A DNA stretch of 64,000 bases from Gammaproteobacteria bacterium (GTDB lineage: Bacteria; Pseudomonadota; Gammaproteobacteria; 21-64-14), in contig JALUXX010000012.1 in assembly GCA_027013145.1 (NCBI GenBank), positions 1 to 64,000 on the forward strand, given 5' to 3'. Of the stretch, positions 13,689 through 16,454 are shown one piece after another. Numbering within the stretch: position 1 is the stretch's first letter; the number at the start of each line of letters is the position of its first letter. The position numbers and the translations under genes were made by a program. Below the pieces are notes generated by a model that saw only the letters and a program-made list of their open reading frames with translations, made no database searches and was not told where the DNA came from.

Positions 13689-14552
13689 ATGAGCGAAGAC
13701 ACCAGTACCGCAGCGTCGGACGGATCCCAAGCCTCCAGACGATTGACGAGTGTAGACTGGCTGCTGGCCGCCGGAGTCTTCGCAATAAATGGGGTACTGG
13801 TCTACGTTGCAGCTCCCCGTTTCGTATACCTCGATCCGAAATTCGGGCTGGTGGGCGTGATGGGATTGGGGTTTGCGGGTGCCGGCGTGATAACGGCCTG
13901 GTGTCTTTTCTCCTGGCAGGTGCCTGATCTGTCCGAAGGAGGGCTGATCGTGCAAACGGCGCGGATCCTTGGATGGGGACTCATCGGGACGGTACTCGCT
14001 GCGTTGCATCTTCACAGCGGCAGTCGCGGGCCCTGGGGATTGCTGCGACACGGCGTTCCCCCGGGTGGCCACCTCGCACTTGGGGGGCGCGGTCCGGGAT
14101 ACGTCCTGGCTACTTCGATGGCCGCCTACGGACAGCTATGGACTGCGCTTCGGGCGCTCGTCTACCCTTCCGGTGCCCGTCGCAGCCTGAGTACCGGGCC
14201 GAATCGGCGGGCACCGGCCGCGGCTCAGGATCGTCCCGGGTTACCCGGTTCCGCCGTCGCCGAAGCGACGCCTCTCTGTCCGCGATGCGGCGGCGCGGCA
14301 GTGGAGCCGCACCGCAGTTGGAGGACGATCCTGAAGGTCGCCATCGTCGCGATGGTGGCGAGTCCGTATGGAATGTCCGACGAACTGCGCCAGCGGGGGA
14401 CGCGTTGGACGTGCCGTACCTGCGGGCATCATTTCGTCGCCCCGACCGCCCTGCCGATGGATCGATTCGTGCAGCGCCTACGGGCGCGCCTCGGATTGCC
14501 CGTACTCTTGATCCTCCTGGCCGCCGCGCTATTACTGCTCACCCTCGTCTAG
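13689..14552 (+). CDS. Hypothetical membrane protein with a C-terminal zinc ribbon
   Basis: A 287-residue protein that I do not recognise. It has hydrophobic helices near residues 23-41, 52-73, 88-104 and 135-152. A CPRCGGA knuckle near 200 and a CRTCGHH knuckle near 245 form a probable zinc ribbon, interrupted by a short hydrophobic stretch (KVAIVAMVASPYG). A final membrane helix (LPVLLILLAAALLLLTLV) ends the protein. The ATG at 13689 is the first start that fits the membrane segments; a GTG at 13641 is also possible. It stands alone between motAB and hipBA. Function is unknown. Confidence 0.6.
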   Translation: MSEDTSTAASDGSQASRRLTSVDWLLAAGVFAINGVLVYVAAPRFVYLDPKFGLVGVMGLGFAGAGVITAWCLFSWQVPDLSEGGLIVQTARILGWGLIGTVLAALHLHSGSRGPWGLLRHGVPPGGHLALGGRGPGYVLATSMAAYGQLWTALRALVYPSGARRSLSTGPNRRAPAAAQDRPGLPGSAVAEATPLCPRCGGAAVEPHRSWRTILKVAIVAMVASPYGMSDELRQRGTRWTCRTCGHHFVAPTALPMDRFVQRLRARLGLPVLLILLAAALLLLTLV

Positions 14553-14637
14553 ATGTCCTGCAGCTCGGTAGCTAACGCGAACACGGTCGCCGTGCAATGT
14601 GTCACGACTCTCGCACCCTGGCGGCAGATCTTTCCGT

Positions 14638-14793
14638 GAAATATTAAAAAAATATCTAAAATCATTATAATATATAAGTTGATTAATTACGAACATTAAG
14701 ATAAAGCTATCTGGACTCTCGGGATCTTATTATACATATAAAAGTGATCATAAGCTTGCAAACTTAGATATACTAAGTATAAACTTGTATGTT
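14638..14793. other. AT-rich island upstream of hipBA
   Basis: About 155 bp of strongly AT-rich sequence in an otherwise very GC-rich window. It contains runs such as ATTAAAAAAATATC, several TATAAT-like hexamers (e.g. 14666-14671), and the hipB promoter/operator. AT-rich leaders of this kind are typical of horizontally acquired modules and are favoured by H-NS-like silencers. Confidence 0.75.
14756..14783 (+). promoter_or_regulatory. hipBA promoter with a palindromic operator in the spacer
   Basis: TTGCAA (14756-14761) and TATAAA (14778-14783) are 16 bp apart. A perfect palindrome (ACTTAG, five-base centre, CTAAGT; 14762-14778) fills the spacer. A repressor bound there would block RNA polymerase, as expected of HipB autoregulation. 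The transcription start would fall near 14790, four bases before the hipB ATG, so the mRNA would be leaderless or nearly so. Confidence 0.55.
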
Positions 14794-15159
14794 ATGAGTT
14801 TCCTCGATCCGCTATCGGACCGGGAAGTCGCGCGCCGCCTCGGCGAGCGGATCCGTGCGCTGCGCCTGCGGCGCAACCGCACGCAGGCCGAGGTGGCGAA
14901 GGCGACGACCCTGAGCCTCGGGACGATCCAGGCGCTGGAGGCCGGGGAGGGCAAGCTCGTGAACCTGGTCGCGGTACTGCGGGAGCTGGGCGCGCTGGAC
15001 TCGCTCGATGCGCTGCTCGCCGGGCCGCAGGCGAGTCCGCTGGAGCTGGCGCGCCGCCGCGGTCGCCCGCGGGTGCGGGCGACCGGGCGCCGGGGACGGC
15101 GCAAGGGCGCGGCGAAGCCGGGCGCTCCGGCACCCGCGGAGGACGACGAATCATGGTGA
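14794..15159 (+). CDS. hipB: HipB-type antitoxin (XRE helix-turn-helix)
   Basis: A 121-residue protein. Residues about 12-65 form a Cro/CI-type helix-turn-helix (LGERIRALRLRRNRTQAEVA, then TTLSLGTIQALEAGEGKLVN). The C-terminal tail is basic and disordered (RRRGRPRVRATGRRGRRKG). HipB binds operators in its own promoter and holds the HipA kinase inactive. The ATG at 14794 is preferred over a TTG nine bases earlier. The gene overlaps hipA by seven bases. The long RGRP-type basic tail is typical of a HipB subgroup found with this class of HipA. Confidence 0.87.
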   Translation: MSFLDPLSDREVARRLGERIRALRLRRNRTQAEVAKATTLSLGTIQALEAGEGKLVNLVAVLRELGALDSLDALLAGPQASPLELARRRGRPRVRATGRRGRRKGAAKPGAPAPAEDDESW

Positions 15160-16454
15160 GTCCGGTCGCGGCGATGGTGCGCCTGTGGGGCCGCGAGGTC
15201 GGGGCGGTGGCGTGGGACGCGCAGCGCGGGGTGGGCGCCTTCGAGTTCACCCCGGAATTCCTCGACGCGGGCTATGACCTCGCCCCCCTGCACATGCCGC
15301 TCGAGCGCGCCCACGGTGCGATCTTCGAGTTCCCGGCGCTGCCCCGGGAGACCTTCCTCGGGCTGCCGGGGCTGCTCGCCGACGCGCTGCCGGACCGGTT
15401 CGGCAACGCCATCATCGACGCCTGGCTCGCGCGCACGGGCCGCGACGCGGCCGGCTTCAGCCCGGTCGAACGCCTGTGCTACACGGGAACGCGCGGCATG
15501 GGCGCGCTCGAGTTCGCGCCGGCGATCGTCCCGGCGCTCGACCGCTCCGTACCGGTCGAGGTCGGCGAACTCGTCGAGCTGGCGCAGGCCATCGTCGGTC
15601 GCCAGGACGGGCTCCGGGGGCACTGGGGCCGCGACGAGCGCTCCAACCGCGGCGCGCTGCTCGACATCCTGCGCGTGGGCACCTCGGCCGGCGGCGCACG
15701 GCCGAAGGCGGTGATCGCGATGAACGATGAGGGCCGGATCCTCTCCGGCCAGACCGACGTCCCGCCCGGGTACACCCACTGGATCCTGAAATTCGACGGG
15801 GTCGCGGACCTCGAACTCGGCGCGCCGAAGGGCTATGGGCGCATCGAGTACGCCTACCACCGCATGGCGAGCGCCGCCGGTATCGAGATGCGCGAGTGCC
15901 GCCTGCTCGAGGAGGGCGGGCGCGCCCACTTCCTGACCCGGCGCTTCGACCGCGACGACGGCGGGAAGCTGCACCTCCAGTCCCTGTGCGGCGTCGCCCA
16001 CTACGACTTCAACGCCGCCGGCGCCTACGGCTACGAACAGGCCTTCGAGGTCATGCGCCGGCTGCGCCTGACCAAGGCCGAGGCCCTCCAGCAGTACCGG
16101 CGCATGCTCTTCAACGTCGTCGCCCGCAACCAGGACGACCACACCAAAAACATCGCCTTCCTCATGGGGCGCGACGGTCGCTGGCGCCTGGCCCCGGCCT
16201 TCGACGTCACCTACGCCCACAACCCCCACGGGATCTGGACGAACCGCCACCAGATGTCCATCAACGGCAAGCGCGACGGCTTCACGCGTGCGGACCTGCT
16301 CGGCGTGGGCCGCTCGATCGGGCTCGCGCGTCCCGCCGAGGTACTGGAGGAGGTCGTCGAGGCGGTCGCGCGCTGGCCCGAGTTCGCGCGCGAGGCCGGG
16401 GTTCCCGCACCGCGCATCGCCGAGATCGGGGCCGAGCACCGGTTGCGGTGGTGA
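15153..16454 (+). CDS. hipA: HipA-type serine/threonine kinase toxin
   Basis: A 433-residue kinase of the HipA/PI3-4-kinase-like fold. HipA of E. coli phosphorylates glutamyl-tRNA synthetase and induces growth arrest. Visible elements: the activation-loop region GTSAGGARPKAVIAM, a nucleotide-binding Lys in THWILKFDG, the catalytic motif NVVARNQDDHTKNIAFL and the metal-binding LAPAFDVTYAHNP. The N-terminal subdomain (VRLWGREVGAVAWDAQRGVG) is the HipA_N/couple-hipA type. All kinase motifs look intact. It is translationally coupled to hipB. Its codon usage is GC-rich like the host, unlike the AT-rich leader in front of the operon. Confidence 0.93.
   Translation: MVSPVAAMVRLWGREVGAVAWDAQRGVGAFEFTPEFLDAGYDLAPLHMPLERAHGAIFEFPALPRETFLGLPGLLADALPDRFGNAIIDAWLARTGRDAAGFSPVERLCYTGTRGMGALEFAPAIVPALDRSVPVEVGELVELAQAIVGRQDGLRGHWGRDERSNRGALLDILRVGTSAGGARPKAVIAMNDEGRILSGQTDVPPGYTHWILKFDGVADLELGAPKGYGRIEYAYHRMASAAGIEMRECRLLEEGGRAHFLTRRFDRDDGGKLHLQSLCGVAHYDFNAAGAYGYEQAFEVMRRLRLTKAEALQQYRRMLFNVVARNQDDHTKNIAFLMGRDGRWRLAPAFDVTYAHNPHGIWTNRHQMSINGKRDGFTRADLLGVGRSIGLARPAEVLEEVVEAVARWPEFAREAGVPAPRIAEIGAEHRLRW

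Follow-up and report, generated by a model that had tools for sequence, protein, structure and literature searches.

Apparent turnover of the AT-rich control region in a hipBA operon with conserved genes

In E. coli K-12 hipBA, HipB is described as binding cooperatively to four operators of the form TATCC-N8-GGATA, and a C-terminal tryptophan is described as conserved for the protein (PMC3376134). The HipBST system of Legionella has three genes, and its published account gives 18-nt sites made of six-base repeats with 53-bp gaps, the first site lying 24 nt before the start codon (PMC10653801), while HipB operator arrays are also noted in Caulobacter (PMC7029023). Leaderless repressor messages with operators over the promoter are described for paaR2-paaA2-parE2 and lambda cI (PMC8630535), and for Mycobacterium tuberculosis leaderless toxin-antitoxin messages are reported in 32 of 37 pairs with a primary start (PMC3898074). 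The original prediction followed up here concerned a hipBA operon in a 64,000-nucleotide stretch of gammaproteobacterial DNA (“the window”, i.e., the whole stretch analysed; contig JALUXX010000012.1 of assembly GCA_027013145.1, ~70% GC, from a genome of 3.28 Mb), and proposed a leaderless hipB promoter with a HipB operator inside its spacer. Since HipB operator arrays, leaderless repressors and leaderless toxin-antitoxin pairs are known, neither half of this idea is new in kind.

The operon in the window shares with that of E. coli K-12 its organization as one operon, an HTH repressor-antitoxin with a C-terminal tryptophan and a HipA kinase domain. The E. coli operator, however, differs in half-site and length from the motif AATAGnC-N8-GnCTATT that we found upstream of the window's relatives, and the window has neither site; within its AT-rich control region (hereafter the island, Table 1) there is no TATCC, no GGATA and no 5-8-5 dyad above shuffle level. 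As presented in its source, Legionella hipBST resembles the relatives in having several inverted-repeat operators 5′ of hipB, one of them overlapping the promoter, but differs from them in being a three-gene system with another site size and spacing (PMC10653801). The leaderless start of paaR2 is described as mapped by 5′ RACE (PMC8630535), whereas the one in the window is predicted. Likewise, M. tuberculosis is an actinobacterium in which leaderless genes are described as common (PMC3898074), whereas the coding-like frames of the window mostly bear Shine-Dalgarno (SD) motifs, with an SD-like motif (at least 3 bases) at a candidate start in 26 of 27 frames and a longer one (at least 4 bases) in 21 of 27, vs. 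11 of 27 internal control starts.

The assignment of the locus to hipBA was sound. The hipA product matches the Pfam domains HipA_C (9.4e-52) and, at its N-terminus, Couple_hipA (2.9e-16), both above cut-off, and is the single HipA_C match found in the whole genome; the product of hipB, directly 5′ of hipA, matches HTH_31 and HTH_3, also above cut-off. A profile built from 42 HipB homologues matches the HipB chains of E. coli, Legionella and P. fluorescens (4yg1, 4z5h, 2wiu, 8ezt, 9u9g), and in fold the AlphaFold model of the hipB product (mean pLDDT 79.9) is similar to HipB chains as well as to other HTH proteins. The window's HipB also ends in tryptophan, as do 44 of the 54 close homologues (the window included) but 55 of 123 overall. 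Given these domains, the profile and fold matches and the terminal tryptophan, the locus is, as far as its sequence tells, an ordinary single-copy chromosomal HipBA type II toxin-antitoxin pair, in which the roles of toxicity and neutralisation are predicted. Inside hipB, positions 15061–15084 hold a 10-bp perfect GC-rich inverted repeat (GGTCGCCCGC-GGGT-GCGGGCGACC), and the C-terminal half of HipB has a GRxRxRASG-like stretch after the HTH domain (15061–15087; majority consensus of 42 homologues). Before the island lies a 203-codon open frame (13943–14554, forward strand) that has no Pfam match; its second half contains two cysteine pairs, CPRCGG and CRTCGHHF.

Table 1 Features of the hipBA locus in the window (positions relative to hipB count back from its ATG).
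Feature	Position	Strand	Description
AT-rich control region	14638..14793		156 bp before hipB, 23% GC
TTAAAA-16-TATAAT	14644..14671	+	Top-scoring promoter-like pair of the island; -10 starts at -128; 11.7 bits
TATTAT at exactly -66	14728..14733	+	Commonest family -10 position; without a matching -35; possible relic
TTGCAA-16-TATAAA	14756..14783	+	Promoter of the original prediction; -10 starts at -16; 8.2 bits
Predicted hairpin	14760..14801	+	18 pairs (3 G-U); would hold the hipB start codon region in transcripts begun upstream
Inverted repeat ACTTAG-ATATA-CTAAGT	14762..14778		Candidate operator
Two-codon frame ATG-TTA-TGA	14789..14797	+	Stop overlaps the hipB start (ATGA); sequence only
hipB	14794..15159	+	HTH antitoxin/repressor of 121 aa; Gln46 in the recognition helix (residues 42-49)
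hipA	15153..16454	+	Kinase toxin of the HipA family, 433 aa; 7-nt overlap with the end of hipB

Much of what had been read directly from the island was borne out. Its very AT-rich setting is the sole one of its kind in the window; among 150-bp stretches separate from it, the lowest GC content is 47%. The hexamers TTGCAA (14756–14761) and TATAAA (14778–14783) do flank the repeat, with a 16-bp spacer at 14762–14777, and counting 7 nt on from the -10 puts the expected start at 14790, about four bases from the hipB ATG at 14794. An SD region had been said to be missing, and no SD-like motif was found in -16 to -5 of hipB. The two-codon frame in Table 1 would be relevant if transcription begins at 14789. 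The repeat, described as a perfect palindrome, has perfect 6-bp arms around a 5-bp middle, ATATA, that is asymmetric. When the island was shuffled 1000 times with dinucleotides kept, 74% of the shuffles held an inverted repeat with arms of at least 6 (51% with a spacer of up to 5), so the repeat alone is at chance level (P about 0.5) and was rejected as a significant feature by itself; indeed, no tested DNA dyad in the island exceeds shuffles. A genome-wide search for the ACTTAG...CTAAGT site, put forward as a way of finding it elsewhere, was run over the 3.28 Mb and returned the one occurrence at zero mismatches and two more places at 2 mismatches, i.e., no other exact copy. An IHF-like site at 14673 (one mismatch) was set aside as no evidence, since shuffles average 1.0 such sites.

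Neither promoter candidate in the window is far from chance. TTGCAA and TATAAA match the consensus hexamers at 4/6 and 5/6 positions, respectively, and the island has three such pairs where shuffles average 1.4. Scored with approximate matrices, the upstream TATAAT at 14666–14671, which the original prediction had itself named as its refuter, outscores TATAAA (11.7 vs. 8.2 bits). A best-of-island score of 11.7 bits was reached in 7% of 1000 shuffles; for TTGCAA-16-TATAAA the position-specific shuffle P is 0.07, while a best-of-island score this high occurs in 70% of shuffles. With a criterion drawn up once the case was known, a promoter-like pair enclosing a repeat near the ATG arose in 1.1% of 2000 shuffles. 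The predicted hairpin over the hipB start codon folds at -12 kcal/mol (z -3.56; P 0.003 of 1000 shuffles), for a stretch chosen after a first fold. Folds with z below -3 at -40 to +12 were found in 4 of 54 loci, and two of these four are the two members of the window's genus.

To place the island among its relatives, 138 loci with hipB and hipA were gathered from scans and genome searches, giving 123 distinct upstream regions, the window's among them (5 loci with hipA missing or a short upstream region were dropped, and loci lacking a HipB match were uncounted); the close set comprises 53 relatives with HipA identity of at least 58%. AT-rich upstream regions are usual (median 32% GC vs. 58% in coding sequence), and the hipB upstream region is the most AT-rich part of the locus in 73 of 120 loci, with no other 100-bp window equalling it. 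A free EM search for an operator drifted to an AT-rich motif and was discarded, therefore we used a consensus read by eye from the same loci and then fixed for counting. The resulting 22-bp motif, AATAGnC-N8-GnCTATT (at least 9/12), has 87 sites in the 53 relatives vs. 4.5 expected from shuffles, an excess that is partly by construction because the consensus came from the counted loci; its positional pile-up at -22 (23 of 53), -63 (16) and -123 (7) is unaffected by this. The motif is present in 41 of the 53 relatives and absent at 9/12 in the other 12. The copy at -22 to -1 extends to the ATG, and AGG, GAG, GGG or GGA lies within -12 to -5 in 19 of the 23 loci that have it. HipB presumably binds this motif; among the papers listed by a literature search it was not met as a stated operator, and a co-occurrence of hipB with both half-site strings in one paper was rejected, as the strings lie in primer sequences. 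In seven further loci (L009, L010, L134, L136, L137, L139 and L140), HipB forms a subgroup with [AG]KRT[LV]ERxE recognition helices, and apparent CGTCA/TGACG-like half-sites run up to the ATG upstream of hipB, as judged by eye.

Promoter positions follow a similar regularity. A TATAAT match (at least 5/6) lies at -67 to -65 in 25 of the 53 relatives and not in the other 28, and among 122 loci promoters of at least 10 bits number 18 in the -70 bin and 10 in the -65 bin (0.8 and 0.5 expected), with smaller peaks at -50 (5) and -45 (9; 0.7 expected for each). Because strong promoters concentrate at about -66, with the lesser peaks at -50 and -45, many relatives are probably leadered. Few loci have a strong promoter close to the ATG (2 and 2 of 122 in the -20 and -15 bins; 0.7 and 0.8 expected). 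The plan of a -66 promoter, with operators over its -10 and over the SD, is thus common, not universal. An SD-like motif (at least 3) was found in 40 of the 54 close loci, the window being among the 14 that have none, and loss of the SD was not associated with a better near-ATG promoter (14 vs. 40 loci, P 0.68). In one SD-less locus (L040, also L173), whose HipB is 57% identical to the window's and which has no -66 promoter, positions 172–199 hold TGGACA-16-TATAAT, which places a -10 at exactly -16 relative to hipB (12.3 bits, reached in 0 of 200 shuffles), and an operator-like copy (9/12) lies over that -10. Of the loci examined it is, on sequence grounds, the best candidate for a leaderless hipB message. 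The arrangement originally imagined may therefore exist, more convincingly there than in the window.

The window departs from this plan at every element. Its best match to the family operator is 7/12, at shuffle level, and at -66 a promoter scores 3.5 bits. By comparison, its orthologue in BMS3Bbin13 (L034/L115), a genome of the same genus where HipA is 81% identical and hipBA occupies the equivalent chromosomal place, next to the motAB-like genes that it also adjoins in the window, has TTGACC-16-TATAAT at -66 (13.9 bits) and an operator, AATAGCC...GTTGATT, at -63 (10/12), but only 7/12 at -22. The island does not align with the BMS3Bbin13 upstream region (local alignment z 0.5), and against the 53 relatives there is no convincing alignment (best z 3.9, uncorrected for multiple trials). 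A repeated new operator, spaced as in the family, was also looked for and rejected: 22-mers 41 bp apart match at up to 13/22, which 125 of 1000 shuffles reach. In the recognition helix of HipB, residue 46 is Gln in the window and Lys in BMS3Bbin13 and in 44 of the 54 close loci; an operator of at least 9/12 is reached in 39 of the 44 Lys46 loci vs. 2 of the 10 with other residues (Fisher P 4.5e-5, kin counted as independent), and the change to Gln in the window is a single event. Both genes look conserved, under purifying selection after divergence from the sister genome (dN/dS 0.26/0.88 for hipB and 0.13/0.65 for hipA, with dS near saturation). Since the -66 promoter, operator and SD are absent here and residue 46 is Gln, while the orthologue keeps promoter and operator, the control region and the repressor's specificity seem to have turned over together while the two genes were conserved. 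The order is represented in the comparison by two genomes, too few for footprinting this turnover within the lineage.

As to the origin of the locus, HipA relatives occur in 672 plasmid records, all below 60% identity, and in 4 phage records, with none confirmed in viral contigs; for HipB, a plasmid search at E 1e-5 gave none. A mobile origin was rejected: the sister genome has the hipBA locus too, next to the same motAB-like genes, which makes recent transfer unlikely. Upstream of hipB in BMS3Bbin13 (L034 2587–2611, -40 to -16) we also observed a perfect 25-bp palindrome, ATCTGAAATCC-ATG-GGATTTCAGAT, with 11-bp arms; arms of at least 11 arose in 0 of 2000 shuffles, and its 21-bp core pattern occurs once in that genome at zero mismatches. 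This palindrome is the structure behind the low fold z of the BMS3Bbin13 locus. It is a candidate operator or leader hairpin, distinct from the family operator.

Our preferred reading, with a probability of roughly 0.7, is an autoregulated hipBA operon whose AT-rich control region has lost the -66 promoter, the family operator and the SD, and whose HipB carries Gln46. Under the common plan, HipB dimers would occupy two 22-bp operators: the first lies over a sigma70 -10 at about -66, and the second, which ends at the ATG, covers the SD. The window has none of operator, -66 promoter and SD, presumably because they were lost rather than never present; HipB would still repress the operon, now from a new site within the island, and hipB would be translated from a start lacking an SD. 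Transcription would begin either at the upstream TATAAT, giving a long SD-less leader, or at TATAAA, giving a leaderless message.

The leaderless version, in which TTGCAA-16-TATAAA is the main promoter, transcripts start at 14789–14791 and HipB on 14762–14778 excludes polymerase in the manner of CI and PaaR2, is possible, though less likely than not. The motif positions fit it, as do the missing SD and -66 promoter, the -16 promoter of the SD-less locus L040 and the rarity of the joint arrangement in shuffles; a transcript begun at 14790 would, moreover, omit the 5′ arm of the hairpin. The hexamers are nevertheless weak, and the start as originally stated is disfavoured by the commonest family -10 at about -66, the few near-ATG promoters (which SD-less loci do not have in better form) and the stronger pair upstream. 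The chance-level repeat ACTTAG...CTAAGT is unlike AATAGnC-N8-GnCTATT in half-site and spacing, and as a HipB operator it does not fit the family geometry and is unproven. Direct blocking of polymerase by HipB agrees with the normal HipB mechanism and with the relatives' operator overlapping the -10; what is unsupported is the operator site in the window.

If instead the pair at 14644–14671 were the main promoter, a ~115-nt AT-rich SD-less leader would place the start codon in the hairpin and antitoxin translation would be low. This reading, about as probable as the leaderless one, draws on the island's top score and on most strong family promoters being leadered, although that score has a best-of-island P of just 0.07, -128 is uncommon as a family -10 position (best promoter of each of 54 loci), and a closed, SD-less start would translate poorly, yet both genes are conserved. 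A degenerate or silent promoter is possible too; that promoter, operator and SD were all lost by drift towards AT, leaving the operon barely expressed, is unlikely. All three family elements are indeed missing and island dyads do not beat shuffles, but the purifying selection that both genes have experienced after the sister-genome split argues against decay, as does the fact that relatives, in which AT-rich upstream regions are usual, keep the operator in 41 of 53 cases. Highly improbable, finally, is a translational switch by promoter choice, in which transcripts from the upstream TATAAT would be silenced by the hairpin, leaderless ones from TATAAA translated, and HipB at the dyad would shut the productive promoter, with L040 as a second shift from leadered and SD-using to leaderless.

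Returning to the loss of the common plan in an operon that would still be autoregulated, the useful part of this work lies in the comparison with relatives, where an operator half-site covers the SD and one protein site could affect both the promoter and the ribosome-binding site. The window offers a natural case of an apparent joint change in operator, promoter position and a residue of the recognition helix. Should a leaderless start be demonstrated, hipB would join the small number of HTH repressors from gammaproteobacteria that are known to have leaderless messages.
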